A DNA stretch of 45,901 nucleotides from Nitrospira sp. (GTDB lineage: Bacteria; Nitrospirota; Nitrospiria; Nitrospirales; Nitrospiraceae): NCBI GenBank assembly GCA_023248215.1, contig JAHFEW010000029.1:1-45901 (forward strand). Direction: 5' to 3'. The notes under the pieces were generated by a model. That model had not been told where the DNA came from, searched no databases, and saw only the letters and a program-made list of their open reading frames with translations. Within the stretch, counting starts at the first letter, position 1. Each line of letters starts with the position of its first letter. The translations under genes and the position numbers were made by a program. Below are positions 4,477-37,128 of this stretch, one piece after another.

Positions 4477-4529
4477 TTGTTCTTGCTGAGGAGTTGTCAA
4501 CGCTCTGCATCCACCCTGCTAGGAAACCT

Positions 4530-6209
4530 ATGGACATTATTCTGCCGATCATCGCAGTCATAGCGCCTCTCTTGGCGAGCGGCCTCATCGCTCTGTTTGG
4601 GGCGAGACTCGGCGAAAGAAGCTCCTCCATCGGAGTCAGCGCCCTGTGGCTATCAACCCTTGCGGCCTTGGGATCGCTCTATCATGTCGTGCAGAATGAA
4701 CCTGTACTCCTGACGTTTTCGGCCTGGCTCCCTCAGCCTCTCTCTTACACGTTGCTGATCGATCGGCTGACTGCCGTCATGATGGTCCTCATCACCGGAG
4801 TGAGCCTGATCATTCATGTGTACTCACAGCGCTACATGCAAGGGGACCAGGGGTATGTCCGATTCTTCCGTCTGCTCGGTCTTCTGACTTTCGTGCTGTT
4901 GAGTCTGGTCACCAGTGGAAGTGCCTTCTGGCTCTTCGTCTATTGGCATCTCGTCACGTGGGCATTGTTCTTCCTGCTCTCCTTCAATGCGGCCAGTCCG
5001 GCAGCACGCGCAGCTGCGCGAACTACGTGGCGGGTGCAGGGGCTCGGCGATAGCGCCTTTCTGGTCGGAACGGTGCTGATGTACACCCAGTTCGGGACCT
5101 TCGATCTCACCGGGTTGTTCCGTGCGATCCGCGCCTCCGACGCGCCTGCTCTCTGGACTGGTACCATCCTTGAAATCAATTCCGTCACGGCAATTACGCT
5201 GTTGATCTTGATCGCGATCATGACGAAATCCGCCCAATTCCCCTTCCACGTATGGCTGCCGGGGACCATCGAGGCGCCCACACCCGTCTCGGCAATGCTC
5301 CACGCAGGGATCGTCAATGCCGGAGGCTTTCTGGTCAACCGGCTGGCTCCGCTCTACGGCGCCGCTCCGATGTCGCTCCACCTGATGTTTCTTATCGGAG
5401 GGCTGACCGCCTTGATCGGAGCCACCACGATGCTCACCCAATCCAGCATCAAGCGGACGCTCGTCTATTCCACGATGGGACAGATGGGATATATGATCAT
5501 GGAATGCGGGCTTGGGGCCTTCGCTCTCGCCGTGTTCCACCTCTGCGCACATGGGCTGTTCAAGGCCACGCTGTTTCTCAATTCGGGAGCCAGCATTCAG
5601 AAAGCGCGGAGCGAGTTCAAGCTTCCAGGGCAGAATCATGTAGAAGAAGCAGCCAGCTTCTCGCTGGTGACCTGGGCGACCGGCTTGGGAGTCACGCTGC
5701 TGCTGCCATTGATCATCCTGCTCGCCGCCCACGGCCTCGTCCGTATCCCCTTGCTTGAGACGCAGGGCACCGTGATCTTCCTGTTCTTTGCCTGGGTCAC
5801 CTCAGCTCAAGCGATCTTCAGCCTGTATCGCCTCGACGCGGTGGCCTCGTGGAAGGTGTCCTTGACGATGGTGGCGACGCTCGCCTTGATCGGCCTGACC
5901 TACTTGTGGGCCGGCGAATCCTTCACCCATTTTCTCTATCCAGACACGGAGCAGGTGGCAACCTATTTTCAGGCAGCATTCTGGCCCAGAGGCATCTTTG
6001 ACGCCGTGGTCACCCTCGCAGCGGTCCTCGTCTTTGCGGTCTGGATACTCCTGTACGGCAGAGCTCATGGAATGCGGTTTTTGGTTCCCAACTGGCTGGG
6101 CACCCTCCAGACCCACGCCTATGTCGCATTCCTCAACGGCCTCTACGTGGAGGATGCCCTGCGAGCCTGGGGAAGACGTTCGAGGCGGATGAAGGTTCGA
6201 ATACCCTAG
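4530..6209 (+). CDS. dabB: DabB, proton-channel-like membrane subunit of the bicarbonate transporter
   Basis: 559-residue polytopic membrane protein of the NuoL/MrpA antiporter-like family, with many hydrophobic helices and the family segment around KSAQFPFHVWLPGTIEAPTP and TALIGATTMLTQSSIKRTL. Because it sits directly before a DUF2309 (DabA) gene and no other complex I genes are near, it is assigned as DabB, which couples ion flow to DabA, and not as NADH dehydrogenase subunit 5. The frame is open back to a TTG at 4494, but that TTG touches its purine-rich stretch with no spacing; the ATG at 4530 has AGGA at 4521-4524 with a five-base spacer and starts a hydrophobic helix, so it is preferred. 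Confidence 0.88.
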   Translation: MDIILPIIAVIAPLLASGLIALFGARLGERSSSIGVSALWLSTLAALGSLYHVVQNEPVLLTFSAWLPQPLSYTLLIDRLTAVMMVLITGVSLIIHVYSQRYMQGDQGYVRFFRLLGLLTFVLLSLVTSGSAFWLFVYWHLVTWALFFLLSFNAASPAARAAARTTWRVQGLGDSAFLVGTVLMYTQFGTFDLTGLFRAIRASDAPALWTGTILEINSVTAITLLILIAIMTKSAQFPFHVWLPGTIEAPTPVSAMLHAGIVNAGGFLVNRLAPLYGAAPMSLHLMFLIGGLTALIGATTMLTQSSIKRTLVYSTMGQMGYMIMECGLGAFALAVFHLCAHGLFKATLFLNSGASIQKARSEFKLPGQNHVEEAASFSLVTWATGLGVTLLLPLIILLAAHGLVRIPLLETQGTVIFLFFAWVTSAQAIFSLYRLDAVASWKVSLTMVATLALIGLTYLWAGESFTHFLYPDTEQVATYFQAAFWPRGIFDAVVTLAAVLVFAVWILLYGRAHGMRFLVPNWLGTLQTHAYVAFLNGLYVEDALRAWGRRSRRMKVRIP

Positions 6210-6235
6210 GGAAACACGGCTGAATTGGAGTCTTG

Positions 6236-9200
6236 GTGACGACACTCAAGAGACAGACTTTCACCGATGCGCAGCGCATGGAAGTGCGCTCCTACGTCCA
6301 ATTGGCGAGAGAGGTCATCGCCCAGTATTGGCCGATGCGGACCTTCATCCATCACAATCCACTGCATGGTCTGGAAGGCCTGCATTTCGAAGCAGCTGTC
6401 AAGCGAGGGGCACAGCTGTTCGGTGGCCGTGGTTATCTGAGCAACGAGACCTTTCGCCGCTACTTCAAGAGCGGGCGCATTTCCCCGGAAGACCTGCAGG
6501 CCACCATCGAGCCTCTTGCCGCTGCGAAACAGGTGACCTTTTCGGGTCGCGCCACATCACACTTTGATGTGCTCATGGCTTCGATCGTGCATGGCATCTC
6601 TGAACGTCGCGCGCATCAATCCGATCCGCCGCACCCTGAGGAGCACCAGGCCGTCCGTAGGACTGAGTCCTGGCTCAAAGCAGTGGATGCCGCCATTACG
6701 CCCGCCACCGTTCCGTTAATGCCATGGGAGTCGGCGGAACTCCCTCTCCGCGAAACCTGCGCCGCCTGGTGTGATCGGACGATTGGCACGACGCTCGTCG
6801 ACACGATCAACCGTGAAATGGTCAAGTGGTGCAGCGCGTTCCTGGATGAGGGTGAAGCCTCCTGGGGCATGCCGGACCGGGGAAAGAGGTTTTACCAAGC
6901 TTGGAAATCTCTCGCCCAGCACGATATGAGCCTCCGCCTCATCGGCATCCGGAAAGCGGCACAGAAAGTCGCCGCGCTCTCCGATCGGTCGGAAGACGCC
7001 CTCTTGGAAAGTTTGACGATCTTAAAGATTCCCAAGGCCGCGTGGGAAGAGTATCTGGCACACCATTTAGCGGCCCTGCCGGGCTGGGCCGGTTACATCA
7101 AGTGGCGTGTCGACCAAGACAATTATCCCTGGCAGCAACAGCAGCCGATCGATTTGGTGAAATACTTGGCGGTCCGCTTGTTTTACGAACGCGAACTGGT
7201 CGATCGAAGCTGCCGGGAGGAGCTCGGAATCCCGGGAGACGGCGACGCCATCCGCGCATACATGGACAGCCATCCACACGCCTACTGGTTCCGCCGGGAA
7301 TGGGTGGCAGGCTGTGTGGCGACGCCGGCCGCAAACCAGGCACGCCAGCTGACGAGGACCGGACGAGGGCCAGACGCTGACGCCTGGGATGATCTGGGCC
7401 GTGAGCAGTTCCGGGAGGCGAACGACCGCCGAGCGGAGGAGGCCGTGACCTTGGCAGCGCGGCGACTTCTCGATCTCGCGCGAGTCCTGGAGATCGATCT
7501 CCCCGCCATCGAATCGACCACTCCGTCCGATGTCCCCATCCTGCTCAACTGGATCGAAGGATTCCCGGCCTCGCAGCATGGACCGCGGTGGCTCGAGGCG
7601 TTCGAGGCCGGCCACCGTCGACAGGTGCTGGCCGAACTGGCGACCGGAGTTCGCCAGGCTGCAGTCGATCCCCATGCAGGAGACCAGGCCTCCCCTGCAC
7701 GACCGCTCGCTCAGGTGGTGTTCTGCATCGATGTACGCTCGGAGGTCTTTCGTCGCCATCTCGAACATCGGGGCGGATATGAAACGTTGGGCCTCGCCGG
7801 ATTTTTCGGTGTGCCGCTGGACTATCAGCCGTTCAATGCACAGCACACGGTGGCCCACTGTCCGGTGCTCTTGAGGCCGAAGAACCAGGTTCGAGAAGTG
7901 CCTCGAAGCTATCATGTGGTGGAGGCCGAGCGGCACAAGACGGCGGCGCAACTCAGTAAAGCGGCGCACACGCTCCTGCATGACTTGAAGGAAAACGTCG
8001 TCACGCCCTATGTCATGGTGGAGGCGGTCGGCTGGTTGTTCGGTCTGCCCCTGTTCGGGAAGACGCTGTTTCCGAGCCGGTACCACGCGATCGCCCGGTG
8101 GCTGAGGGCGCGCCTCATGCCCTCCATCGCCACCACGTTGACGGTCGAGAAGATCACGCGGGAAGAAGGCGAGGACATGGTCGCGGCGGAACAGCAGGCG
8201 CAGATCCGCGAAATTGTGCGAGAGCGGTTCGGCTTGCACGGCGCCGCGCTTTCTCCCGCTCTCCTGGAACACATTCGGAAGCAGGCCATTGGAACGGCGG
8301 AAGGAACCAACGGCGAGGCGGCCCGAGCCTTGGCCTTGTCGCCCCAGGATGAGGAACGATTCTATGAACAGCTGCGTCAGGAGCACGGCATCAGCCCTCG
8401 CGGCGTCTCGGACCGGCTGCATCGCATCACGCACACCGGCTTTACCACGACCGAGCAGGCCTATTTCGTCGAAGCCGCGCTGCGGCTGATGGGGTTGACC
8501 TCCAACTTTTCCCGCGTGGTCTTCTTTTGCGCGCATGGCAGCACATCTCAGAACAACCCCTATGAATCGGCCCTCGACTGCGGCGCCTGCGGAGGCAACC
8601 AGGGTCTGCCGAATGCGCGTACCATCGCGGCTATGGCCAACAAGCCTGCCGTGCGCGAACTGTTGCAGGCCCGCGGCATCAAGATCCCCGGCGATACGCA
8701 CTTTTTCGCAGGACAACATGACACCACGAGCGATCGAGTGCGCATCGTGGACTTAGAGGACGTGCCCGCCACGCACCGGAAAGATCTCCAGCGTCTCGCC
8801 GCAGATTTGGCGGAAGCCGGCATGCAGGCCGCCCGTGAGCGGGGCGCCTTCCTCGATGCAGCGACCGACAGGCTTACCCCATCCATTGCCCAGCAGGAGG
8901 CGCAGCATCGGAGTGAAGACTGGGCGCAAGTCCGCCCCGAATGGGGGCTTTCCAAGAATAGCCTCATGGTGATCGGGCGTCGTGATTTCACCAAAACAGT
9001 CGATCTGCGCGGGCGCTCATTTCTTCATTCGTACGACCATCGGCAGGATGGCTCCGGGAAACTTCTCGAAACCATCATGACCGCCCCGCTCGTGGTGGCG
9101 CAGTGGATCAACATGGAGCATTACTTTTCCACGGTTGACAACGAGGTGTATGGCAGCGCCAGCAAGGTCTATCACAACGTGGTCGGACGCATCGGTGTGA

Positions 9201-9502
9201 TGACCGGTGCGTGGAGCGATCTGCGCATCGGGCTGCCTGCCCAAACAGTCTGGAACGGGCGCGAGCCCTATCACGAACCCATGCGGTTGCTGACCGTCAT
9301 CGAAGCGCCAAGAGAACGCATCGGCGCCATCATCAATCGGCAGCCGCTGCTCGAACAGCTATTCGATCGGGAGTGGGTGACGCTCGTGGCGCTGGAACCC
9401 CAGGACGGCGCGTTCTATCAATACGACGGCCTGAACGGATGGACATGTATCGAAGGAGGGTCGCATGATCAGCTTAACACTGCATACCATGAAAGAAATT
9501 AA
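6236..9502 (+). CDS. dabA: DabA, zinc-dependent DUF2309 subunit of the bicarbonate transporter
   Basis: 1088-residue DUF2309 protein, the cytoplasmic beta-carbonic-anhydrase-like subunit that with DabB accumulates bicarbonate. The expected zinc-site residues can be read: Cys497 and Asp499 in VFCIDVRSE, His767 in FFCAHGST and Cys782 in DCGACGG. The partner arginine of the carbonic-anhydrase-like dyad would be R501 in the first motif. A TTG at 6233 is immediately followed by GTG at 6236; GGAG at 6227-6230 gives five bases of spacing to the GTG, so GTG is preferred. It lies 26 bases after dabB and its 3' end overlaps the PII-like gene by 38 bases. In an autotroph the complex would supply inorganic carbon to carboxylating enzymes. 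Confidence 0.93.
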   Translation: MTTLKRQTFTDAQRMEVRSYVQLAREVIAQYWPMRTFIHHNPLHGLEGLHFEAAVKRGAQLFGGRGYLSNETFRRYFKSGRISPEDLQATIEPLAAAKQVTFSGRATSHFDVLMASIVHGISERRAHQSDPPHPEEHQAVRRTESWLKAVDAAITPATVPLMPWESAELPLRETCAAWCDRTIGTTLVDTINREMVKWCSAFLDEGEASWGMPDRGKRFYQAWKSLAQHDMSLRLIGIRKAAQKVAALSDRSEDALLESLTILKIPKAAWEEYLAHHLAALPGWAGYIKWRVDQDNYPWQQQQPIDLVKYLAVRLFYERELVDRSCREELGIPGDGDAIRAYMDSHPHAYWFRREWVAGCVATPAANQARQLTRTGRGPDADAWDDLGREQFREANDRRAEEAVTLAARRLLDLARVLEIDLPAIESTTPSDVPILLNWIEGFPASQHGPRWLEAFEAGHRRQVLAELATGVRQAAVDPHAGDQASPARPLAQVVFCIDVRSEVFRRHLEHRGGYETLGLAGFFGVPLDYQPFNAQHTVAHCPVLLRPKNQVREVPRSYHVVEAERHKTAAQLSKAAHTLLHDLKENVVTPYVMVEAVGWLFGLPLFGKTLFPSRYHAIARWLRARLMPSIATTLTVEKITREEGEDMVAAEQQAQIREIVRERFGLHGAALSPALLEHIRKQAIGTAEGTNGEAARALALSPQDEERFYEQLRQEHGISPRGVSDRLHRITHTGFTTTEQAYFVEAALRLMGLTSNFSRVVFFCAHGSTSQNNPYESALDCGACGGNQGLPNARTIAAMANKPAVRELLQARGIKIPGDTHFFAGQHDTTSDRVRIVDLEDVPATHRKDLQRLAADLAEAGMQAARERGAFLDAATDRLTPSIAQQEAQHRSEDWAQVRPEWGLSKNSLMVIGRRDFTKTVDLRGRSFLHSYDHRQDGSGKLLETIMTAPLVVAQWINMEHYFSTVDNEVYGSASKVYHNVVGRIGVMTGAWSDLRIGLPAQTVWNGREPYHEPMRLLTVIEAPRERIGAIINRQPLLEQLFDREWVTLVALEPQDGAFYQYDGLNGWTCIEGGSHDQLNTAYHERN

Positions 9503-9794
9503 AATCGTGGTCCAGGGCGAACACGTGAAGTTTGTCACGGACCTTCTGGATCGGGTCGGCGCCACCGGCTATACGATCATCAACAGTGTGTCCGGCAAAG
9601 GCCACCATGGATTTCATGAGGGGCATTTGCTGTTTAACGACACCAGCAGTCAGGTGATCGTCTTCACGGTGGTGCCGGAAGAGCGGGTCGAGCCGATTCT
9701 GGCGGGTCTGGGTCCGCTCTTCAATAAACATTCAGGCGCGATGTTTGTGACTGACGTGGCAGTCAGCCGTCGTGACCACTTTCTCGCCAAATAA
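9465..9794 (+). CDS. PII-like signalling protein of the dab operon
   Basis: 109-residue protein with the PII/GlnB ferredoxin-like fold pattern: a beta strand KEIKIVVQG, a helix with FVTDLLDRVGATGYTIIN, a T-loop-like stretch SGKGHHGFHEGHLLFND and a C-terminal HSGAMFVTDVAVSR. The canonical uridylylated Tyr51 and the ATP-loop signature of GlnB are not evident, so it is a PII-like protein, as found beside SbtA and Dab bicarbonate transporters, and not a nitrogen-regulatory PII. It probably gates DabAB in response to a nucleotide or bicarbonate; this is inference from context. A strong SD (GGAGGG at 9454-9459) selects the ATG at 9465 although it lies inside the end of dabA; a later in-frame ATG at 9489 is less likely. 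Confidence 0.8.
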   Translation: MISLTLHTMKEIKIVVQGEHVKFVTDLLDRVGATGYTIINSVSGKGHHGFHEGHLLFNDTSSQVIVFTVVPEERVEPILAGLGPLFNKHSGAMFVTDVAVSRRDHFLAK

Positions 9795-9920: not shown

Positions 9921-11885
9921 ATGCGTTCCTCCCGTCGATCACGCCCCAAGCCATCCGCCCAGGCGCAATCGGAAGTCGCCGCCGGGGAAGTCTTGGTCTG
10001 GCTCAGTGACTGCATCCGAGGCGGCCTCTGTTTTGTGTCCCACAGCATCGTGATCTTCGAAAACGCGCAGTTTGGAGAACTGGTCGAAGCGCCACATCCA
10101 GGGTCGGGGCTTCCGCTGCGAACGCGTCTTCTCGATGAGGGAATGGCCTGGCATCACGAACCGCTCGGAGCCCGTGACACAAAGGAATATCGCCTGGCTG
10201 ATCGACAGGGCGATCCGCTCATCTACGAATGCCGATTCAACGTCGTTCCCTATCGCGGCGACACGGGCGTGCTCATGGTGCTGGAAAACGTCACGGAGCG
10301 GACCTTGCTGTCGCAGGAAGCCTCCCAGGTGGCCCGATTTCAGTCGGTCCTGGCGCGCATCGGGACGCTCGCGGTGAGTGGAACCCCGGTCCAAGAGATC
10401 ATGAACGAGGCCGCGCGCCTGACGGCCGAGGCCTTAAACGTGGAGCTCTGTAAAATCCTCATCCCTCGGGAATCGGATGAACATCTGTATCTCGTCGCCG
10501 GTGTCGGCTGGCGCGAGGGTCTCATCGGCACCTTGACGGTGGAGGGAGGCATCCATTCTCAGGCGGGTTTTGCGATCCGCGAACGGCAGTCGGTGGTCGT
10601 GCGGGACTTGCGAACAGAAACGCGCTTCGTGCCCTCGAGGCTCCTATCTGAGCATAGCGGAATCGCCGGCATGAGCGTGCCCATGATGGTGCAGGATCGG
10701 GTGTACGGGGTCATGGGGGCGCACTGCAAGACCGTACGGGATTTTGCACCGAAGGAGTTAGAATTTCTCCACTCGGTCGCCAACTCGGTGGCCACCGTGC
10801 TCGAACGATGGCGGCGAGAGGAAACGCAGCTGCAGCTCTACCACCGGATGTTTGAGCTGGTACAGGACGGCGTCATGTTGACCGATACGCACGGGGCGCT
10901 CCTGGAATGGAATCCGGCGATGGAACGCCTATCGGGCTGGACGCGACACGAGGTCATCGGCCGAACACCGTCCTTGCTGAAATCCGGGAAACATCCGCCT
11001 GAATTCTTCGAGCGCATGTGGCAGACGATCCGGTCCGGTTCGGCCTTCGTCGATCGTGTCGTGAACCGTCGCAAGGACGGCTCCGAGTTTCTGGTGTGGG
11101 AGAGCGTGAGCCCGGTCAAAGATCCAGATGGGACGATCCGCTACTATCTCGCCATCCTGACCGACCTCAGCGAGCGAGAACAAATGCTGGAAGCCCTGCG
11201 TCATACGGAACAGGTGAAACTCGTCGGGCAACTCGCCGGCGGCATCCTCCACGAAGTCCGCAATCCGCTCATCGGACTCGGGAGCCTGGCTACCCATTTG
11301 GCTGATCAGGACACCCTTCCTCAAGACGCGCGCGACCGGTGCCGTTTGATCGCGCGCGAAGCGGCGCGGATCGACGACTTGCTTGAATCTCACCTTGGAC
11401 AGTTGCGGCCACGACCCTTCGAGATCGCTCCCTGTGACCTTCCTGCGCTGCTCGACGATACCCTGACCTTGCTGCACCCGAACTTGTTGAAGCATCGCGT
11501 GGCTGTGAAGAAAAACGTTGCCGCGGATCTTCCATTGGCGGAGGCGTCGCGAGCCCATATTCTCCAGGTCTGTCTGAACATCGTCATGAATGCAATCGAC
11601 GCGATGCCGAACGGCGGCGAATTGGCGATCACCATCAGGCCGGAGACCAGACGAGGCATGGGGCTGCTCCTGACCTTCGCCGATTCCGGGAAGGGCATCT
11701 CCCCCGAAAACCTGCAACGCGTCTACGAACCGTTCTTTACGAATGGAAAAGCCAAGGGTGTCGGTCTTGGGCTGACCATTACCCGCGACATAATCGAACG
11801 GCACGGCGGCCAATTGCTGATTCACAGTCCGCCTGGGAGCGGGGCTGCCGTGGATATCTGGCTTCCACTGAAACGCGAGGGCTAG
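9921..11885 (+). CDS. Cytoplasmic PAS/GAF/PAS sensor histidine kinase
   Basis: 654 residues without a membrane segment. Order: N-terminal PAS-like region (about 25-128), GAF domain (about 140-300), PAS domain with PAC tail (about 305-420, motif LEWNPAMERLSGW), HisKA with phospho-accepting His444 in GGILHEVRNPLIGL, and HATPase_c with the N box (NIVMNAIDAMPNGG), G1 box (FADSGKGIS) and GVGLGLTITRDIIERHGG. All catalytic boxes look intact. It stops one base before the NtrC-type regulator, so the two are an NtrB/NtrC-like pair. The signal is unknown; GAF and PAS domains point to a cytoplasmic small molecule or redox cue. Its position just after the dab operon allows, but does not prove, a role in carbon supply. 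Confidence 0.9.
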   Translation: MRSSRRSRPKPSAQAQSEVAAGEVLVWLSDCIRGGLCFVSHSIVIFENAQFGELVEAPHPGSGLPLRTRLLDEGMAWHHEPLGARDTKEYRLADRQGDPLIYECRFNVVPYRGDTGVLMVLENVTERTLLSQEASQVARFQSVLARIGTLAVSGTPVQEIMNEAARLTAEALNVELCKILIPRESDEHLYLVAGVGWREGLIGTLTVEGGIHSQAGFAIRERQSVVVRDLRTETRFVPSRLLSEHSGIAGMSVPMMVQDRVYGVMGAHCKTVRDFAPKELEFLHSVANSVATVLERWRREETQLQLYHRMFELVQDGVMLTDTHGALLEWNPAMERLSGWTRHEVIGRTPSLLKSGKHPPEFFERMWQTIRSGSAFVDRVVNRRKDGSEFLVWESVSPVKDPDGTIRYYLAILTDLSEREQMLEALRHTEQVKLVGQLAGGILHEVRNPLIGLGSLATHLADQDTLPQDARDRCRLIAREAARIDDLLESHLGQLRPRPFEIAPCDLPALLDDTLTLLHPNLLKHRVAVKKNVAADLPLAEASRAHILQVCLNIVMNAIDAMPNGGELAITIRPETRRGMGLLLTFADSGKGISPENLQRVYEPFFTNGKAKGVGLGLTITRDIIERHGGQLLIHSPPGSGAAVDIWLPLKREG

Positions 11886-11886
11886 C

Positions 11887-13287
11887 GTGGCATGGCAACT
11901 TCTACTGGTCGAGGATGAAGCGTCCGTTCGGGAGGCCTTCGCCCTGCGTCTCACCGGCCAAGGCTACCTCGTCCAAACGGCGGCGTCGGGAGAAGACGCC
12001 TTCACCCTCCTTCGCTCCTTCGAGCCGGATATCCTGGTGTTAGATCTCGTCATGCCGAACCTCTCGGGCCTGGATGTCCTGGCCCGAGTGAAACAAACCA
12101 CACCAGAGCTTCTCGTAATCGTACTGACCGCCAGAGGTACGGTAAAGGACGCCGTGGAAGCGATGCGGCTCGGGGCCTTCGATTTCGTCGCCAAGTCCAT
12201 CGACATGGACGATCTCCACCATACCCTGAACCGCGCGACGGATCTGCTCACACTGCGCCGGCAGGTCCAGCTGCACAGCGGTCAGGATGCGAAACGCTAT
12301 GCGATCGATCGCCTCATCGCGAACAGTCCTGCCATGCAGACGTTCATGCAGCAGGTTCGAGAACTGGTCAAGAGCGATCGCGTGACGGTCCTGCTCCAAG
12401 GCGAGACCGGGACGGGTAAGCAGTACATGGGGCGCGTGATCCATTTCAACAGTCCCCGGGCAGACAGGCCCTGCATGGAAGTGGATTGCCCCTCCATCCC
12501 GCGCGAATTGTTCGAGAGCGAATTGTTCGGCCATGAGAAAGGGTCGTTTACGGGGGCTGCAGGGCGGAAATGCGGGCTGATCGAACTGGCCGAAGGTGGG
12601 ACCGTCTTTTTCGACGAGATCGGCGACTTGCCGCTCCCTCTTCAGGCGAAGCTCTTACGGGTGCTCGAAGAACGGACGTTGCGTCGCGTCGGAGGATCGG
12701 CCACCATTCCTGTGGACGTCCGATTCATGGCTGCGACCAATCGCGATCTCAAGGAGGCGGTCACGAAGGGCGAGTTTCGCGAAGACCTCTACTATCGGCT
12801 CAACGTGGTAACTCTCACCGTCCCGCCGCTCCGCGAACGAGGCGACGAGATCATTCCCCTCGCCGAACAATTTCTCATTCGTTCTGCGGTTGCGCTCAAG
12901 AAACCGGTGCGTACGTTGGGTGAGAGCGCAATGAACCTCTTGCGCCAGTACCACTTCCCCGGCAATATCCGTGAGTTGAGCAATCTCATGGAACGGGCCG
13001 TCCTGTTCTGCCAAGGCCCAACCCTCGAAGCCGCCAACTTCCCTTCCGATGTCCATGGTGGGAACCGGCCATCGGCCACAGCCTCACCACAACATCCGAT
13101 TCCTGCACCAGATGGGTCCGATCCCACCGCCGTCCAGATCTCCTTCCGAGTCGGAGAACAATCGCTGAACGACCTCGATGATCGGATCATTGCCGAGGTG
13201 CTGTGGCGGTCAGACGGCAATAAGACCCTGGCCGCCAAACATCTCGGCATCACGCGCTGGATGCTCGACAGACGGCGCAAGTCTTAA
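11887..13287 (+). CDS. NtrC-family sigma-54-dependent response regulator
   Basis: 466 residues: receiver domain (phospho-acceptor D53, K103), AAA+ domain (Walker A GETGTGKQ at 172-179, sigma-54 contact loop GSFTGA at 219-224, Walker B FFDEIG at 241-246, arginine-finger region [10 protein letters not shown]) and a short C-terminal Fis-type helix-turn-helix ([19 protein letters not shown]). Starts at GTG 11887, one base after the kinase stop. Two departures from the family: Walker A has Gln after the lysine where Glu is usual, and GAFTGA is GSFTGA. The second is a known natural variant; the first is unusual. No convincing -24/-12 promoter was found in the window, so its target genes are unknown. 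Confidence 0.92.
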
Positions 13288-29505: not shown

Positions 29506-30942
29506 GTGCAGCGCATCCGTGAAGGACTCAAGACAAGGCTTCGCTCCCTCGTCACCCAGCGCACCGGACTGGACGAAATGGCCGTCGATGATCTGGCAAC
29601 ATCGACGAAATTGCTCTCCTGGGAAGCGGTACAAATTCCAGAGCGGCTCCGCTTCTCGTCCCGTCTGGCCATTCTCCTGGTCGGCCTCTTCATGCTGATC
29701 GTCGCCTTCGTCCCCTGGACCCAAACCATTACTGTGACCGGCCAGCTTTCCGCCTACACACCGTTCGACCGACCGCAAGACATCGAGGCGCAGATCACCG
29801 GCCGCATCAAGAAGTGGCACATCTTCGAAGGCGTGCGGGTCAAAGCAGGCGACGTGATTCTCGAACTCGATGACTACGACCCGAACTTCATGGCCCCGGA
29901 TCTCTTGAGCTTGCTGGAACAGCGCAAGAAAGCGCTGGAAGATACCCGAAAGGCCGCGCTGAGTCGCGCCGATCAGCTGGACAAGCGGATCAAAGAGATG
30001 CAAAACCTCGTGAAGGCGGCGGTCCCCTCGGCAGGCGCGCGGGTTCTCGAGGCGGAGAGCAAGGTGCGTGAGGCACGGCAGAAGATCGAAGCTTCCAAAA
30101 TCGCCGTGGCCACCGCCGAACTCAACGTGGATCGTCATCAACAACTCGCCCAACAAGGCCTCGTCTCCCAACGCGAATTGGAACTCACCATTCAATCCGC
30201 CATCGCCAGCAAGGCCGACCTGCAAGGGGCACAGGCCAACCTCAGCGCGGCCGAACAGGGCATGAAGGCGCTGAGCTTCGGGCGAGACCAAGTGAGCGCT
30301 GAAGTGCTCCAACGCCTCCTGGATGCCGAGGCTGCACGGGATGCGTCGATCGGAGAAGCCGCGCGAGCCGCCGATCAAGTGGCGGACGTGTCGCTACGAC
30401 TATCAAATGCCAACCAGCGACGCGTAGCCAGCCGCATTCTTTCACCGATCGACGGAACTGTGGTGAAGATGGCGCAGGCCGGCGCGGGGGAAACGGTGCG
30501 GCCGGGGGATAAACTGGTCAGAATTTCTCCCACCAGCTCGGACAAGGCCATCGAGATGGTCGCCGACGGCATTGATGCGCCGTTGCTCAATGTCGGACGA
30601 AAGGTCAAGATTCTCTTCTATGGCATTCCGGCCATCCCATTGCCGGCATGGCCGGAATTGATGGCCGGTACCTACAATGGCGTGATCAAGGTCGTCGACC
30701 AGGTGGACGATGGGAAAGGCAACTTCCGCTTTTGGGTCGTCCCCGACCTGGAAGAACGTCCTTGGCCTCCGCAAGAACATGTCCGCCAGGGCACCAAAGC
30801 CATGGGGTGGGTCATTCTCAACCGGGTCCCGCTCTGGTATGAGCTGTGGCGCCGATTCAACCTCTTTCCGCCTGACTACCAGGAACGGCCCCCGAGTTTG
30901 ATCGATACGCTCTTGCCGAAAGCCGGGCGAGGGGCCAAGTAA
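29506..30942 (+). CDS. HlyD-family periplasmic adaptor (membrane fusion protein)
   Basis: 478 residues. One membrane helix (about 55-75, LAILLVGLFMLIVAFVPW), a biotinyl-lipoyl half motif (GRIKKWHIFEGVRVKAGDVILELDD), a long alpha hairpin/coiled coil (about 125-330) and the second half motif (SPIDGTVVKMAQAGAGETVRPGDKLVRI), then a beta-barrel. It links an inner-membrane transporter to a TolC-type channel. The frame opens at 29458, but GGGAGGGG (29494-29501) just before GTG 29506 and the promoter -10 over the earlier ATGs decide for GTG. Unusual C-terminus: a conserved-looking tail with VILNRVPLWYELWRRFNLFPPDY. First gene of the cassette with tolC-like, two ABC-like and a sensor-like gene. Confidence 0.87.
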   Translation: MQRIREGLKTRLRSLVTQRTGLDEMAVDDLATSTKLLSWEAVQIPERLRFSSRLAILLVGLFMLIVAFVPWTQTITVTGQLSAYTPFDRPQDIEAQITGRIKKWHIFEGVRVKAGDVILELDDYDPNFMAPDLLSLLEQRKKALEDTRKAALSRADQLDKRIKEMQNLVKAAVPSAGARVLEAESKVREARQKIEASKIAVATAELNVDRHQQLAQQGLVSQRELELTIQSAIASKADLQGAQANLSAAEQGMKALSFGRDQVSAEVLQRLLDAEAARDASIGEAARAADQVADVSLRLSNANQRRVASRILSPIDGTVVKMAQAGAGETVRPGDKLVRISPTSSDKAIEMVADGIDAPLLNVGRKVKILFYGIPAIPLPAWPELMAGTYNGVIKVVDQVDDGKGNFRFWVVPDLEERPWPPQEHVRQGTKAMGWVILNRVPLWYELWRRFNLFPPDYQERPPSLIDTLLPKAGRGAK

Positions 30943-31033
30943 CGCGTTTTCCCCTGACCGGCGTTCATACCGGAGCGCCCCTATCCTTCGACTTTCACAC
31001 TCTCTCAATTGGACTCAGAAAGGAGTGCACCTC

Positions 31034-32524
31034 ATGAAGAAGAATGCCTGGGTGTTTATTATCGCAGCCTGTGCGCTCTGCTGGCTGCCAGAAGGTAGCG
31101 TGGCCGGAGACGACGCAGTCAAATCCAGAACACTTCCGCCGATTCCACTCTCATTGAATGAAGTGCTGGCTTGGATCGATCGATCCCATCCACTGTTGAA
31201 GGGAGCCGGAACCGAAAAGGTCTCGGCCCGCGGCAAAATGCTCAAAGCCCTGGGCGCCTTCGAGCCTGTCTTGGTCAATGATACCGAGATCGAACGATTT
31301 GTCGACAAGGGTAGCACCAAAACGCAAAGCGTGGGATTCAACGATACATTGATCGAAGCGCGTCACCCCTCGGGATTGCGCGGCAGCGCGGGATTTCGCC
31401 AGGCGATCGGCGACGCGACGATCCCCGACCTCTCCTTCGGCAACGGCAATCAGCAGGTCATCCTCGGCGGCTTCATGCCCCTCCTCAAAGGGCTCATGGT
31501 CAACCCGGAAAATGCCGAGCTCCAGCGCTCGGAGTTGGCTGATCCTCGTGCCGAGGTGAAGATTTCCCAAACCAGACAGGACCTGTTCCTGGCGGCAGCC
31601 ACCCAGTTTTGGGATTGGGTGTCCACGGCAAAGTTCGTGGATGTGCAACGCCGGGCACTCGGCGTCGCGGAAGAGCGGTTAAGACAGGTGGAAGGCAGAG
31701 CCAAAGCGGGAGCCGTGGCACCTCTCGACGTGGTCGAGGCCGGCCAGGAAGTCCAGCGCCGGCGCGAAGTTGCCATTGCGGCACAACGATCGGTGGAGCA
31801 AGAGCAGTACAAAATGTCGATGTTCCTCTGGGAAAACCAGACGCCGACTGCGCCGCAACTCGATCGAGCACCTGATTTCCCGCCACCGACTGCCGCCCCG
31901 ACGGCTGACATCGTCAAAGCCGACAAGCTGCAAGCGAAAACCGATCGTCCGGAGATTCGCGAGGTCGATATCGAAGCGAAGGTCAACAATATCGATTTGG
32001 AACTAGCCAAGAACAATCTCCTGCCTAGTCTCGACCTCGAGGCGGCGCCGGCGCGAGCGCCGGAGAAATTCGTCCTCGGGCTGGGCTACCGATTCGGCGT
32101 GGAACTGCGTATGCCGATCCTTCAACGAAGAAGTCGCGGTGAAGTGCTGGAAGCACAGGCACAGGCCGATCGCCTGGTCCTCGTCCAGAAATACCGGGAG
32201 CAGCAGGTGGTCGTGGACGTCGATAATGCCCTGTCGGCGATTGAACGGGCGAAGGAACGCGTCACCGCAGCCACTGAATCCCTCCGTATGGCCAAGACCC
32301 TGGAGGAAGGCGAGCGGTTCCGCTTCAGCCTGGGTGCCACGAGCGTCCTCTTTGTGAATCTGCGCGAACGGAATTCCGTCGATTCGGAAATGCAGCTGGT
32401 GCGGGCAAAGGCCGACTATCAGAAAGCGCTGGCCCTCTATCAATGGGCTACCGGCACCTGGGCGCGGAGTCAGCCATCCGCCGTGCCGGTCAACTACCGC
32501 ATCGGCGCAAGCCTCTCCAAATAG
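31034..32524 (+). CDS. TolC-family outer membrane protein
   Basis: 496 residues with a signal peptide (KKNAWVFIIAACALCWLPEGSVAG) and two long helical OEP repeats. The first half holds heptad-rich stretches (for example RQVEGRAKAGAVAPLDVVEAGQEV with the family pattern GxxxxLDVxxA), the second a matching helix pair (RAKADYQKALALYQWATGTW). ATG 31034 is selected by AAAGGAG at 31019-31025; the frame also opens at 31025. It provides the outer-membrane channel for the HlyD-type adaptor 91 bases upstream. Typical length for the family is 420-500. Confidence 0.85.
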   Translation: MKKNAWVFIIAACALCWLPEGSVAGDDAVKSRTLPPIPLSLNEVLAWIDRSHPLLKGAGTEKVSARGKMLKALGAFEPVLVNDTEIERFVDKGSTKTQSVGFNDTLIEARHPSGLRGSAGFRQAIGDATIPDLSFGNGNQQVILGGFMPLLKGLMVNPENAELQRSELADPRAEVKISQTRQDLFLAAATQFWDWVSTAKFVDVQRRALGVAEERLRQVEGRAKAGAVAPLDVVEAGQEVQRRREVAIAAQRSVEQEQYKMSMFLWENQTPTAPQLDRAPDFPPPTAAPTADIVKADKLQAKTDRPEIREVDIEAKVNNIDLELAKNNLLPSLDLEAAPARAPEKFVLGLGYRFGVELRMPILQRRSRGEVLEAQAQADRLVLVQKYREQQVVVDVDNALSAIERAKERVTAATESLRMAKTLEEGERFRFSLGATSVLFVNLRERNSVDSEMQLVRAKADYQKALALYQWATGTWARSQPSAVPVNYRIGASLSK

Positions 32525-32531
32525 TGGCATT

Positions 32532-32560
32532 TTGAGGACTGCTCTGATAGGGTTTATGAA
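32532..32560 (+). promoter_or_regulatory. Candidate promoter before the first ABC-like gene
   Basis: TTGAGG (32532-32537), 17-base spacer, TATGAA (32555-32560), four of six at each box. It would allow the ABC-like pair to be expressed separately from hlyD-tolC. A hairpin starts six bases after it. Confidence 0.35.
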
Positions 32561-32565
32561 AATAT

Positions 32566-32589
32566 GGGGGCTTGTGCGGACAGGCTCCC
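32566..32589 (+). terminator. Hairpin between the tolC-like and ABC-like genes
   Basis: GGGGGCTTGT (32566-32575) pairs with ACAGGCTCCC (32580-32589), ten pairs including two G-U, around a four-base loop. No T-run follows. Either a partial terminator that lowers expression of the downstream genes or a 5' structure of a transcript from the promoter just before it. Confidence 0.4.
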
Positions 32590-32662
32590 ATCAATGATTT
32601 GAGACTCCTCTCGCCAAGACCCGGCAAGAACGCCGATTGAAGTCTTGGCAGGGGTAGCACCT

Positions 32663-34330
32663 ATGGCCCAAGACCATTCCGACAGCCAGGTCAATTTGTT
32701 TCAAACGGTCGTCGGCCATCTCGGCCTCCTGTTCCGTCTGGAGCGGCGGGTCCTCGGCCTCATTTTTTCCTATTCCATTGCCATCGGCCTGTTCGCCCTG
32801 ATCGTCCCCCTTACAGTCCAAGAACTCGTCAACACCTTTGCCTTCGCCCTCCAGCCCATCACCATCGTCACCCTGGCGGCGGTCATGGTGGCAGCCTTGT
32901 TGTTCGTCGGGGCCTTCCGTGCCTTGCAGTACTACGCAGTGGAAGTGCTGGAACGTCGCATTTTCGCCCGTGTCGCCATTGCGATGGCGCAGCAACTCCC
33001 GCATCTACGCTCCCAGGGATTCAAACCTCGTTTCGCAAATATCTTTATTGAAACCATCCTGATGCAACGGGCGATTTCCGTGCTGCTGGTCGATTTGATC
33101 AACGTGATCGTGGGCGGCGCGGTGGGCATGACCATCCTGGTGTTCTATCACCCCTATTTTCTCCTGTATAACGCCATCCTGCTGGTCGGATTTACCGTCG
33201 TGTTCTTCCTGATGAGCCATGGCGGCCTCAAGGCCGACATGGACCTCTCCCATGCCAAATACGACACATTGCACTGGTTTCAGGAAATTGCCTACAACCT
33301 GCTGCACTTCAAATCGACCGACAGCCAGACGCTGCTGATCAAAAAAACGGACCAGCTCCTGGATACCTACATGGGCGTGCGCCGGACCCGATTTGGGATT
33401 CTCATCCGGCAGTATCTGGGATCACTGGGCTGGCAAGCGATCGCGCACGGCGGTCTCATCGCGACCGCCGGCTGGCTGCTCGGGATCGGACAATTGACGC
33501 TCGGGCAATTTGTCGCCGCCGAAGTGGTGCTCAGCGGCATTCTGTCGAGTTTCGACGGCGTCGTGAAACGGATGGGGCATATCTATTACTTTTTGACCGC
33601 ATTGACTGAACTGAACTTTCTGTTCTCCCTTCCGAAAGATCAGGATACCGCAACCCTGTCCATTCCACTGCCCGATCCGACCGTCCACGGCATTCGAGTC
33701 ACCTGCAAGGATCTGACGTTTGCGCCCACCGGCGGCCCGGCCGCGTTCGAGCGTTTCCATTTAGAAGTCACGCCCGGTGAAAAGATCGGCATTTGCGCCG
33801 AGACCACTCTGGCAAAAACGGTGCTGGCTCGCGTGCTGGCCGGTTTGGAATCGCCCACGTCCGGCGTCATCCGCTACAACGGCGTCGACCTCCGACATCT
33901 CAACCTGGACTCTGTCAACCGGTTCAGAGGATTCATTTTGGATTCACAGCTGTCGCTGTTCGAGGGAACGCTCGAAGAGAACATCGTGCTCGGCCGGGAC
34001 TACATCCCCTACAGCGATGTACGTTGGGCGCTTCGTTTTGCCGAGCTTGAAGAAGAAGTCGATGCATTGCCCCAAGGCCTGAAAACTCACGTCCGGAACA
34101 CCGGAAAGATTTTCGCTCCCACCCACATCATGCGCATCCTGGTCGCGCGGGCGATCCTGGGGCGGCCGCAACTCCTCATTTTCGACGGTATCCTCCACAA
34201 CATGCACCCCGCGATGCGCGAGACGATTCTCCGACGCCTCTGCAGCAAGGAAGAGCCCTGGTCGGTGATCTTCGTCTCGAACGATCCCAACCTGACGCCA
34301 CATGTCGACCGCCGCATCATGCTAAACTAA
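32663..34330 (+). CDS. ABC-exporter-like protein with degenerate ATPase domain (copy 1)
   Basis: 555 residues: transmembrane domain (about 35-310, type-I-secretion style, VPLTVQELVNTFAFA, GQFVAAEVVLSG) and a nucleotide-binding-domain fold. ATP motifs are lost: Walker A reads CAETTLAKT (Lys385 and Thr kept, glycines gone), Q-loop Gln replaced (LDSQLSLF), signature LSGGQ replaced (FAPTH before IMRILVARAI), Walker B LLIFDG keeps Asp but the catalytic Glu is Gly, the D-loop is HNMHP and the switch His is Asn (VSNDP). The aromatic A-loop is also missing. The fold markers VARAI and FEGTLEENI remain. No N-terminal C39 peptidase domain. ATG 32663 has AGGGG upstream; the frame opens at TTG 32645. Confidence 0.85.
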   Translation: MAQDHSDSQVNLFQTVVGHLGLLFRLERRVLGLIFSYSIAIGLFALIVPLTVQELVNTFAFALQPITIVTLAAVMVAALLFVGAFRALQYYAVEVLERRIFARVAIAMAQQLPHLRSQGFKPRFANIFIETILMQRAISVLLVDLINVIVGGAVGMTILVFYHPYFLLYNAILLVGFTVVFFLMSHGGLKADMDLSHAKYDTLHWFQEIAYNLLHFKSTDSQTLLIKKTDQLLDTYMGVRRTRFGILIRQYLGSLGWQAIAHGGLIATAGWLLGIGQLTLGQFVAAEVVLSGILSSFDGVVKRMGHIYYFLTALTELNFLFSLPKDQDTATLSIPLPDPTVHGIRVTCKDLTFAPTGGPAAFERFHLEVTPGEKIGICAETTLAKTVLARVLAGLESPTSGVIRYNGVDLRHLNLDSVNRFRGFILDSQLSLFEGTLEENIVLGRDYIPYSDVRWALRFAELEEEVDALPQGLKTHVRNTGKIFAPTHIMRILVARAILGRPQLLIFDGILHNMHPAMRETILRRLCSKEEPWSVIFVSNDPNLTPHVDRRIMLN

Positions 34331-34489
34331 CCGGACCCCAATCCGTCCCCTGTCCTACACATGAACGATTGCCTGTCACGCCACGCAGCCAGGCCGAATC
34401 TCGCGAATCCCGTTCCGCATCGCACCCAGGATTCTGGAGACAATGGGCCACTCGTCCCTTGTGCGAGCGGGCCGGAGAGAACCGCTATC

Positions 34490-34518
34490 TTGACAGAGAC
34501 CGTGCAATTGCTCAGACT
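34490..34518 (+). promoter_or_regulatory. Candidate promoter before the second ABC-like gene
   Basis: Perfect TTGACA (34490-34495) and a weak CAGACT (34513-34518) at 17 bases. It lies in the 220-base gap between the two ABC-like genes, which otherwise shows nothing. Confidence 0.3.
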
Positions 34519-34550
34519 GCGCTGCACAGCAAGCCGACACGAGCATTCGG

Positions 34551-36227
34551 GTGAACCAGAACGCAACTGAATCGACCCTTTCAACCCCTTCCGCCTGGAC
34601 CATCCTCGCACGCCTGAATCTCCTGGTCGGGCTCGAACACCGCATTCTCGCCATCATCGCCTCCTATGCGGTGGTGATCGGCCTCTTTGCGTTGATCGTC
34701 CCGCTGACCGTGCAGGAGCTCGTCAACACCTTCGCCTTCGCGATCCAACCGATCATGATCGTGACGCTTGTGGCGACCATGCTCGGGGCACTGCTTTTCG
34801 TGGGCGCCTTCCGTGTCCTCCAGGCACGTGCCGTGGAAATCTTAGTCCAGCGTCTTTATACACGCCTGGCTGTCGCCTTTACCGAAGCCCTGCCTCGATT
34901 CCGAGAAAACGTCTTTCTTCCTCAACATACCAACACCTTTATTGAAGCGGAGTTGCTGCCACGCGCCCTGGTCGCCATGCTCGTCGACATCGTCAACGTG
35001 TCGGTATCGGGCATGATCGGCATGACGATCCTGGTCATGTACCACCCCTATTTCCTCGGGTATAACACCTTGGTCATCACGAGTTTCGCCTTCCTGCTGT
35101 CATTTTTCGGTCGAGGAGCGCTCCGCATCACGCAACGCGTGTCCCAGTTGCACTACAAGACCTTTCACTGGCTGCAAGACATCGGCATCAACCGGCTGCA
35201 TTTCAAATCCACCGACAGTCTGCCGCTGCTGCTCAAGAAAACCGATGCCCTCGTCCAGGCCTATGTCATGGCGCGCAAAACCCGTTCCGATATTCTGAGC
35301 GGCGCGCAATACAAGAGCTCGGTCATTTTTCAAGCCTTCGCACACAGTGGCATGATCGGCCTGGGCGGCTGGTTGTTGTCGGTCGGCGATATCACCCTCG
35401 GACAGTTCGTCGCCGCGGAAGTGATTGTGGGGACCCTGCTTCTCAACCTCGATACCGTGGCCCGCCGCATGTATGCCGCAATCTATGTCGTCACATCGCT
35501 CGACGAATTGTCGAAGCTATTCGAGCTGCCGAAGGAAGATGTATCCAGTCCCCTCGCCGCCTCCCTCCCCGATCCCTCGCTGCATGGAGTGCGACTGACC
35601 TGCAAGGATGTCTCGTTCGCCGCGCCGGACGGACCGCTCCTCTTCGAACATTTCAACCTGGAAGTCATGCCGGGCGAGAAGATCAGCGTCCTCTCGGAAA
35701 CCAGCACGGACAAGACGGCTCTTACACTCATCTTGGCCGGACTGTACCCTCCGACCGGCGGCGTGATCCGGTACAACGACGTCGACCTTCGGGACGTCTC
35801 TCTGACTTATGTGAACCGATGCCGGGGATTGATGCTGGATTCACATCCCACCCTGTTCGATGGGACCCTGGAAGAGAACATCACGCTGCAGCGCCCCTCG
35901 ATTGGATTCGACGACCTCAGCTGGGCGATCCGATTCGTGGAATTGGAAGAGGAGATTGACGCACTTCCCCAAGGCTTGGAAGCCCCCGTGTACGGGAACG
36001 GCGCCAACTTTACCCGAAGCCAAATCCTGCGCTTGCTCCTGGCTCGGATGATCGTCACCCGGCCGCAATTGCTCGTCTTTAACGGCAGCCTTCACAATAT
36101 CGAGCCGGCACTCCGGCTGACCTTGCTGCGCCGCCTCTGTTCCAAAGAGGAAGCCTGGTCGGTGATTTTCGTCTCCAATGACCCAGAGATCGCACAGCTG
36201 GTTGAACGGCGCGTCATACTCGGCTGA
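34551..36227 (+). CDS. ABC-exporter-like protein with degenerate ATPase domain (copy 2)
   Basis: 558 residues, a clear tandem paralogue of the preceding protein (shared PLTVQELVNTFAFA, LTCKDxxFA, RLCSKEExWSVIFVSNDP). Its ATP site is broken too, partly by different changes: Walker A reads LSETSTDKT (Lys388 and Thr kept), the signature is FTRSQ, Walker B is LLVFNGSL so even the Mg-binding Asp is Asn, the catalytic Glu is Gly, the Q-loop Gln and switch His are gone (Asn). The transmembrane part is well preserved. Starts at GTG 34551 with little SD. It may form a heterodimer with copy 1. Export energy source is unclear; a scaffold or regulatory role is possible. Confidence 0.85.
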   Translation: MNQNATESTLSTPSAWTILARLNLLVGLEHRILAIIASYAVVIGLFALIVPLTVQELVNTFAFAIQPIMIVTLVATMLGALLFVGAFRVLQARAVEILVQRLYTRLAVAFTEALPRFRENVFLPQHTNTFIEAELLPRALVAMLVDIVNVSVSGMIGMTILVMYHPYFLGYNTLVITSFAFLLSFFGRGALRITQRVSQLHYKTFHWLQDIGINRLHFKSTDSLPLLLKKTDALVQAYVMARKTRSDILSGAQYKSSVIFQAFAHSGMIGLGGWLLSVGDITLGQFVAAEVIVGTLLLNLDTVARRMYAAIYVVTSLDELSKLFELPKEDVSSPLAASLPDPSLHGVRLTCKDVSFAAPDGPLLFEHFNLEVMPGEKISVLSETSTDKTALTLILAGLYPPTGGVIRYNDVDLRDVSLTYVNRCRGLMLDSHPTLFDGTLEENITLQRPSIGFDDLSWAIRFVELEEEIDALPQGLEAPVYGNGANFTRSQILRLLLARMIVTRPQLLVFNGSLHNIEPALRLTLLRRLCSKEEAWSVIFVSNDPEIAQLVERRVILG

Positions 36228-36345
36228 TGCAGGGTCCCTGGCTCAAAACGACCCTCGACTTCTTTCTTCCAGCCCGATCTGCTAGACTGATTCCCGAAGA
36301 CTTTCGAGACTTGCGCTCCGGCTCCGGCCTGACGAAAGGGACCCC

Positions 36346-37128
36346 GTGTCACTGAGATCGCGCCTGAAGTTGTCCTTCCCGAGCACCAATCAATTGATCA
36401 TCAGCATCCTGATCGCAGGATTGGGATGGATCAGTGGCCAGGCCCTCAGCCAGATCGACCAGGATCTGCGCATCATGTATACCGAATATACTCTGGGTGC
36501 TGCCGACCTAGCCCACATCTCAGCTGACGTGATGCGCTATCGCAATACGATCATCCGGTCGTTGGAAGCGGAAAATCAAAAAACATTCGAACGGATTACC
36601 GAGTCCCTGCCGACACAACGGGCGCGGATTCAACATGCCGTGGATCGTTATGCCGCGGCCGGTCTGCGCGTGTCCAGGAGCGGCCGGAGCGAGGAGAAGG
36701 ATATCCAGGCGGTCCGCGACAGCCTCGACCAATATTTCTCTGTGGCGAGCAAAACAACCGATTTGCTCGCCCAAGAATGGAATGCGGGCTCCTCGGCTGA
36801 AGCCGCCGAATTGCGGCGAAAAGCCGAAATTCATGCCGCCGACAACGGGGGACCGAAAGTGATGCAGGTGAGTCTGGCGCTGGACCGACTGCTGGAAACC
36901 GTTGCAGAGGTCGCCAAGGACATGCGTGATGCAGGCACCAAAACGATTCGCACGACGAGTTATTGGATCGTCGGCGGCAGCTTCTTCATCGCTCTGTTGA
37001 ATCTGCTCCTGAGTCGTACGTCTCGATCGCAAGAGGCGTCGTCGGCAAGACCCGAAGAAACCACCCGGCCGGGATCACCCCTGCGCCTGCCGAATGACGG
37101 ACCGAATCCAGCGCTACGGACCGACTGA
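36346..37128 (+). CDS. Orphan four-helix-bundle (4HB_MCP-like) membrane sensor protein
   Basis: 260 residues: a cytoplasmic start, membrane helix (about 17-35), a roughly 165-residue mostly helical periplasmic region resembling the ligand-binding bundle of methyl-accepting chemotaxis proteins (RNTIIRSLEAENQKTFERITESLP, then LRRKAEIHAADNGGPKVMQVSLALDRLLETVAEVAKDM), second membrane helix (about 205-222) and a short Pro/Ser/Arg-rich tail. HAMP, methyl-accepting and kinase domains are all absent. GTG 36346 has GAAAGGGA upstream. It follows the ABC-like genes on the same strand by 118 bases and may be their sensor or accessory; inference from position. Confidence 0.6.
   Translation: MSLRSRLKLSFPSTNQLIISILIAGLGWISGQALSQIDQDLRIMYTEYTLGAADLAHISADVMRYRNTIIRSLEAENQKTFERITESLPTQRARIQHAVDRYAAAGLRVSRSGRSEEKDIQAVRDSLDQYFSVASKTTDLLAQEWNAGSSAEAAELRRKAEIHAADNGGPKVMQVSLALDRLLETVAEVAKDMRDAGTKTIRTTSYWIVGGSFFIALLNLLLSRTSRSQEASSARPEETTRPGSPLRLPNDGPNPALRTD

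Follow-up and report, generated by a model that had tools for sequence, protein, structure and literature searches.

Exporter-like ABC proteins with degenerate ATP sites, encoded with HlyD and TolC partners, form a conserved family in Nitrospirota and other phyla

We analysed a 45,901-nucleotide stretch of a Nitrospira sp. genome (assembly GCA_023248215.1, contig JAHFEW010000029.1; hereafter, the window) which carries at positions 29506–37128 a cassette of five open reading frames (ORFs), all in the same direction, encoding an HlyD-type adaptor, a TolC-type channel, two tandem exporter-like ATP-binding cassette (ABC) proteins and a four-helix-bundle (4HB) protein (Table 1). The layout and domain content, originally predicted from the sequence alone, were confirmed with Pfam and NCBIfam. 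Both ABC-like proteins, hereafter pseudo-ABCs, have lost the motifs for ATP hydrolysis, and what was first seen at one locus is a conserved family found in several phyla, in which the dead nucleotide domain is constrained as much as the membrane domain. Taken together, the dead sites, the strong purifying selection and the HlyD and TolC partners are best read as an envelope-spanning machine that does not draw its power from an ATPase of its own. Tentatively, we favour a dedicated tripartite conduit in which the pseudo-ABC would act as a non-hydrolysing gate or scaffold, with a likely role in inorganic-carbon, Na+ or pH homeostasis.

The ATP-site motifs were compared with those of five intact-motif ABC ORFs (406–735 amino acids, aa) from the same genome. 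Copy 1 comprises a membrane domain (approximately residues 1–340) and a presumably non-hydrolysing nucleotide domain (345–561), with AETTLAKT at Walker A, FAPTH at the LSGGQ position and LLIFDG at Walker B-Glu; the corresponding segments of copy 2, which is 54% identical to copy 1, are SETSTDKT, FTRSQ and LLVFNG. Both copies have VSNDP at the switch-His position and Asp (LDS) in place of the Q-loop Gln. The alignment bears out the predicted loss, in both copies, of the Walker A glycines, Q-loop, LSGGQ signature, catalytic Glu and switch His, as well as the additional loss of the Walker B Asp in copy 2 only (Asn there, Asp in copy 1). It also reveals a feature unmentioned in the original prediction, namely, that both copies retain the Walker A Lys and Thr. 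Intact motifs at shifted positions would have spoken against the prediction, and the five cassette proteins contain no such pattern anywhere, be it for Walker A, the signature, Walker B-Glu or the H-loop.

The same loss extends through the family, which we assessed with 181 rows of at least 500 aa (180 distinct, window copy 1 being entered twice; 159 clusters at 98% identity), a set separate from 41 shorter distinct fragments and the genes that encode the membrane domain only. The Walker A Lys is present in 154 rows, the first Walker A Gly in two and the catalytic Glu in two, nearly all rows lack the signature glycines and the switch His, and no row combines the Walker A Lys, Walker B Asp and catalytic Glu. 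At most five of the 11 scored motif residues survive in any row. Three rows yielded pattern matches, including two out-of-register chance hits (L096 and L247) and one real Walker A, in a relative from Riemerella. Loss on this scale throughout the family is not due to chance, and ATP hydrolysis by the pseudo-ABCs appears very unlikely judging from their sequences.

The predicted retention of the membrane domain and nucleotide-domain fold is supported by AlphaFold2 models of the two copies (mean predicted local distance difference test scores of 77.0 and 76.7). The models align to TmrAB, HlyB within the HlyB/HlyD complex and PCAT1, which are among the best structural matches, over 513–538 residues (VIA Z 26.8–29.2; root-mean-square deviation 2.8–3.3 Å), suggesting that the exporter fold is retained and that the proteins would have the type IV architecture of six long membrane helices plus a nucleotide domain. 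Across three phyla, 28–29 of 29 family members share six membrane-domain residues (Y43, H169, F172, W211, Q256 and E293), which occur in none of eight intact exporters; in the larger set, W211 is replaced by Phe in 19 and E293 by Gln in 36 of the 181 rows. We considered proton coupling via H169 and E293 and do not claim it, given the Gln substitution and the helix ends of the model, which place H169 where helix 3 turns into helix 4.

The closest functional comparison is with the ABC exporters of type I secretion systems (HlyB, PrtD and LssB/TIGR03375), with which the pseudo-ABCs share the predicted exporter fold (Z 26–29 to HlyB and PrtD), the HlyD and TolC partners encoded together with them and the operon-like gene order. 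They differ from these exporters in the loss of the hydrolysis motifs, in the lack of a recognized substrate gene and, in two genomes, in the absence of the nucleotide domain. They also score below the NCBIfam cut-offs of TIGR03375, TIGR01842 and TIGR01846, reaching at most 114 bits against the 693 required for TIGR03375. Ordinary ATP-driven type I secretion through divergent yet functional ATP sites could draw on the fold, the partners, the Walker A Lys and Thr kept in most rows and the full Walker A of the Riemerella relative. Nevertheless, we regard it as very improbable in view of the near-complete loss of the catalytic Glu, signature glycines and switch His, the absence of the minimal catalytic set from every row and the existence of natural nucleotide-domain-free versions. 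We do not place the family within ATP-driven type I secretion, as our tests found that it lacks the ATPase features by which such systems are defined.

Degenerate motifs could also mark decaying pseudogenes, and one draft copy with an in-frame stop and one gene split between frames might be cited to that effect. However, within-genus dN/dS values (nonsynonymous over synonymous substitution rates, Nei–Gojobori), which are rough because the median dS is approximately 1, are 0.039 and 0.036 for the membrane and nucleotide domains of copy 1 (16 sequences, 120 pairs), and 0.070 and 0.074 for those of copy 2 (14 sequences, 91 pairs). The partners yielded 0.027 (HlyD, 16 sequences), 0.046 (TolC, 16) and 0.067 (4HB, 13). 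Such strong purifying selection, along with the presence of copy 1 in all 29 genomes of the genus that were searched (in pieces in G028) and of the family in 77 of 295 genomes sampled across the phylum, leads us to reject decay with near certainty, in agreement with the earlier view that the genes are selected. Moreover, conservation among 173 sequences of this order reaches at least 93% at 49 positions of the nucleotide domain. Conserved positions peculiar to the dead domain include LDS at the Q-loop and, in the switch-His region, the DP of SNDP. The two lesions, an in-frame TAG within copy 1 of G010 (L014) and the split of a copy-2-like gene over two frames in G187 (L193 5382–7269), could each be an assembly error or a real loss.

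Copy 2 adjoins copy 1 in 27 of the 29 same-genus genomes (table read by eye). The 77 carriers in the phylum (E-value of 1e-60 or better) all belong to two families of one order, f1 and f3. In the four f3 rows that include the nucleotide domain and were aligned to intact ABCs, the Walker A Lys is lost as well, and in two f3 genomes (G056 and G058) the frames, of 348 and 339 aa, end past the membrane domain. A nucleotide-domain remnant is not detectable beside these two genes with a query that does detect the domain in L037. The dN/dS between the two membrane-domain-only genes is 0.28.

Relatives outside Nitrospirota were sought among 72,556 plasmid records, and we examined eight loci, from sphingomonads and Bacteroidota, at 23–28% identity. 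HlyD and TolC accompany the ABC at seven of these (annotation identifies them at five loci, homology at L182 and both lines at L189); L184 yielded neither gene and has an IS3 transposase downstream. The motifs of the plasmid relatives are dead, except that the Persicobacter protein keeps part of Walker A and the Riemerella protein all of it, despite which the latter has lost the signature, Walker B Asp and switch His. A tree built from 29 family members plus eight intact exporters, limited by long branches and few outgroups, places the family on one side of a branch with 100/100 support. When the Persicobacter HlyD was used as a query, 20 of the 72,556 records matched and all 20 carry a pseudo-ABC at adjoining coordinates, whereas two of the 22 records with a pseudo-ABC lack an HlyD match. 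By sequence comparison, the sphingomonad and Bacteroidota relatives share the motif loss, the membrane-domain signature and, for the most part, the HlyD–TolC cassette. Neither this multi-phylum, family-wide nature nor the carbon- and pH-related neighbourhoods described below were within view of the original prediction, which had called for a search for homologues.

To characterize the gene neighbourhoods, we surveyed 91 stretches with a fixed reference set and grouped them by hand; L197/L225 and L199/L264 represent the same loci, and L213/L263 overlap. The window cassette is flanked by what we take to be purE and purK on one side and an rsuA-like gene and speB on the other, an arrangement present at 27 f1 loci (some cut by contig ends), where HlyD, TolC and the pseudo-ABC are mostly followed by the 4HB gene. 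At a further 28 distinct loci, from genus g6, the same purEK site holds up to three tandem TolC genes, a pseudo-ABC and HlyD; a LysR gene resembling NhaR is found at 25 of these, the other three being cut by contig ends. There are also eight second cassettes of g6 and eight f3 cassettes. A single pseudo-ABC is encoded in 20 of the 27 window-type cassettes (two in the remaining seven), in all 28 main g6 cassettes and in all eight f3 cassettes. The notion of a system driven by two ABC proteins is therefore not supported as worded, also in view of the two f3 genomes lacking the nucleotide domain and of lone copies without HlyD or TolC. Among the predicted partners, the HlyD adaptor and TolC channel are supported, whereas the 4HB gene adjoins the cassette only in f1 among the surveyed loci. 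Overall, the original interpretation is partly supported.

The single-copy cassettes also bear on the possibility that the pseudo-ABCs form mixed complexes as structural partners of an intact ABC exporter whose gene lies elsewhere and which would supply the ATPase. The five intact-motif ABC ORFs of the window's own genome could provide such a partner, and degeneracy of one site is common: it affects 21 of 29 human non-homodimeric ABCs according to an excerpt of PMC7756269, and TmrAB has one degenerate site according to part of PMC8277102. Indeed, heterodimers of this kind (TmrAB, TM287/288, BmrCD and TAP) share the fold with our proteins and, in some genomes, the pairing of two paralogous degenerate-site subunits. 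They retain, however, one competent composite site, whereas here both sites are dead, with signature and catalytic Glu lost, and most cassettes are single-copy. Furthermore, no ABC ORF in the 91 surveyed stretches has both Walker A and signature intact, and the membrane-domain-only versions offer no nucleotide-domain dimer surface. We therefore consider mixed complexes improbable, although a partner encoded outside these loci may exist.

Sixteen of the lone pseudo-ABCs fall into two sets of loci. In one, eight copies without HlyD or TolC adjoin a histidine kinase, seven of them also an NtrC-type regulator; in the other, eight have a GT2 glycosyltransferase and a mannosyltransferase of the PMT family close by, one of these copies being on the opposite strand (Table 1). 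Two more surveyed loci have no recognized partner. The copies next to kinases may keep alive a sensory role, in which pseudo-ABCs would be receptors informing a two-component system or regulator, with the conduit secondary, and the sensory-type 4HB protein after the f1 cassettes and the NhaR-like genes beside many others fit this idea. Set against it are the operon-like association of the majority of surveyed copies with HlyD and TolC, the selection on these partners, which in the window's genus is as strong as that on the pseudo-ABCs, and the tandem TolC genes in g6, which point to a working conduit. On balance, a primarily sensory function seems unlikely, although it deserves to be kept in mind.

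Because most loci encode the family together with HlyD and TolC, the simplest interpretation is a conduit whose gate or scaffold does not hydrolyse ATP. The observed basis for it consists of the motif loss and its family-wide extent, the selection, the nucleotide-domain-free versions, the dedicated partners and the gene neighbourhoods, to which the models add the predicted fold. The HlyD adaptor, TolC channel and pseudo-ABC would form a dedicated envelope conduit, with a pseudo-ABC dimer, fold-retaining and non-hydrolysing, as the inner-membrane member: copy 1 with copy 2 in the window genome, and probably a homodimer elsewhere. Most likely, this dimer would be a gate or scaffold, holding the adaptor and opening in response to ions, a solute or a bound ligand. 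Energy may be supplied by an ion gradient, by flux running downhill or by a partner ATPase that has escaped notice; uphill transport, if any, would presumably be driven by an ion gradient and not by the protein's own ATP sites. The probable task would be the exchange of small solutes or ions linked to inorganic-carbon, Na+ and pH homeostasis.

This last element is likely as judged purely from gene neighbourhood. In the window itself, dabB, dabA and a small gene for what is presumably a PII protein constitute a separate locus approximately 20 kb upstream of the cassette, adjoined by a kinase–regulator pair (Table 1). In relatives, taken as raw counts, dabA adjoins three of the eight f3 cassettes (in the order dabB–dabA–PII in L039 and L040), and carbonic anhydrase adjoins two of the eight f3 cassettes and four of the eight second g6 cassettes. 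In L039, dabB, which is split between two frames, starts approximately 50 bases past the membrane-domain-only gene. The dabA and carbonic-anhydrase cases perhaps represent four independent lineages. In the Sphingobium plasmid pHAL16, dabB–dabA lie directly upstream of the pseudo-ABC, HlyD and TolC genes. A DabA of this kind was matched at 1e-100 in 11 of the 72,556 plasmid records, pHAL16 being the only one from a sphingomonad. A search for beta-carbonic anhydrase gave a match in 11 of 16 genomes, located beside the cassette in six (G052, G059, G243, where it is the sole one, G156, G190 and G264). All six LysR proteins tested from beside Nitrospirota cassettes pass the NCBIfam NhaR cut-off (222–235 versus 219 bits); according to part of PMC6307784, NhaR regulates the high-salt and high-pH response in Escherichia coli. 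The kinase–regulator pair adjoins dabA in seven of the 17 other dabA stretches read, with the regulator alone in an eighth; in two g6 genomes (L198 and L209), an orthologous pair has the cassette and NhaR as neighbours. This context in relatives makes DabB–DabA a candidate functional partner of the cassette.

Several observations weigh against the conduit or its proposed role. No cognate exported protein was recognized among the neighbours listed, as assessed with the fixed reference set and not by a genome-wide search. The lone copies are unexplained by a pure conduit function. ATP binding by the pseudo-ABCs is possible since the Walker A Lys and Thr are often kept, and the Gln at the titratable position E293 runs counter to simple proton coupling. 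Beta-carbonic anhydrase lies away from the cassette in five of the 11 genomes with a match (G057, G060, G228, G249 and G280) and has no match in five of the 16. Neither dabA nor carbonic anhydrase, of which only the beta class was sought, occurs at the 55 purEK-site loci, the window's included, other than in G243, where both cassette types adjoin. The two sphingomonad LysR proteins tested resemble OxyR (below its cut-off) and not NhaR. Finally, DabA is present in 75 of 77 carriers and in 16 of 20 non-carriers from the same two families (hand count); being near-universal in both families, its co-occurrence is uninformative and was discarded as evidence.

A bolder version of the conduit hypothesis, which we think rather unlikely in full, holds that an ABC lineage gave up ATP hydrolysis to become the gradient-gated inner-membrane part of an HlyD–TolC conduit that carries an ion or solute relevant to inorganic carbon or pH (e.g. 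sodium, protons or bicarbonate) through the two membranes. It would cooperate with DabAB or carbonic anhydrase in two phyla or more, and the membrane-domain-only members would be the evolutionary end point. The DAB complex (DabA–DabB) for inorganic-carbon accumulation is encoded beside some cassettes, but the cassette does not belong to the complex as described: a term search of the main text of PMC13144422 returned no TolC, HlyD or ABC transporter.

A different energy source has been proposed for HlyD modules without an ABC, namely, a secondary SecA_DEAD protein (Kamneva et al., 2015; PMC4452313). As presented in part of that study, which covers a Nitrospirae genome, the HlyD–SecA_DEAD–M50 module resembles our cassettes in having HlyD, sometimes TolC-type parts and no working ABC; it differs in that SecA_DEAD is encoded in the locus and an ABC homologue is missing, whereas here the pseudo-ABC is present and SecA_DEAD genes lie elsewhere. 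A second SecA_DEAD protein in the window's genome would suit such a motor. However, among the 77 carriers, at least two matches were counted by hand in 25 (in drafts, some double matches may be pieces of one gene), one in 51 and none in one, the eight f3 carriers all have at most one, and both genes of the window's genome are on contigs other than that of the cassette. With 52 of 77 carriers having at most one match and the genes off-locus, a SecA_DEAD motor is disfavoured, and we give it hardly any credence.

Among the papers listed in searches of the open-access PubMed Central literature, subscription papers being outside the scope, no title or abstract opening describes this family. ABC exporters are understood through ATP hydrolysis, so that a selected, multi-phylum lineage with dead ATP sites and nucleotide-domain-free members represents a natural experiment in which the capabilities of the exporter membrane domain and of an HlyD–TolC conduit can be studied without ATP. 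From the neighbourhoods comes a connection, open to testing, with pH and the acquisition of CO2 in autotrophs, and the label 'ABC transporter ATP-binding protein' on these genes is probably wrong about the mechanism.

Table 1. Coordinates of the cassette, the window's dab region and the lone pseudo-ABC loci
Feature	Position	Strand	Basis
HlyD-type periplasmic adaptor, 478 aa	29506..30942	+	PF13437, 38.8 bits; TIGR01843, 4e-21, under its cut-off
TolC-type outer-membrane channel (OEP)	31025..32524	+	PF02321, 112 bits
Pseudo-ABC exporter copy 1, 561 aa	32645..34330	+	Pfam/NCBIfam domains, motif alignment, model
Degenerate Walker A of copy 1, residues 382–394	33788..33826	+	Alignment to intact ABCs; coordinates computed from residue numbers
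Pseudo-ABC exporter copy 2, 558 aa	34551..36227	+	Pfam/NCBIfam domains, alignment, model
4HB_MCP-type membrane protein	36346..37128	+	PF12729, 40.7 bits
DabB (4494–6209), DabA (6233–9502), small PII-like protein (9465–9791)	4494..9791	+	PF10070 match 6299–9379; NuoL-like matches of DabB
GAF/PAS histidine kinase and NtrC-type response regulator adjoining dabBA	9921..13287	+	Orthology, neighbourhood
Lone pseudo-ABC and kinase loci	L031 9284–13822; L033 5976–10513; L241, L243, L245, L248, L261, L262		
Lone pseudo-ABC and GT2/PMT loci	L034 8399–13082; L048, L211, L222, L224, L247, L249, L251		

In the cassette itself, a further in-frame ATG at 29458, upstream of the HlyD-like ORF, is a possible alternative start, and no recognized cytoplasmic signalling domain is present in the 4HB_MCP-type protein. 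The second SecA_DEAD protein of the window's genome (G000:C68:1234–2385; a frame of 679 aa), encoded besides one of 904 aa, is possibly akin to that described in part of PMC4452313. In a scan of genome contigs, the best 80 of 517 relatives were labelled Nitrospira, Nitrospiraceae, Nitrospirae or Nitrospirota, save one Nitrosospira (L118) and one Acidimicrobiia (L148); the latter two contain Nitrospira-like pseudo-ABCs and are probably mis-binned or mislabelled. Three g6 cassettes encode three tandem TolC (OEP) genes each (L196 4464–9324; L197 4414–9169; L204 11005–15813). In a quick tree, each of the three copies is orthologous by position across the three genomes and species compared, indicating that the triplication predates these species. 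TolC works as a trimer, so that a heterotrimeric channel is possible in these cassettes.

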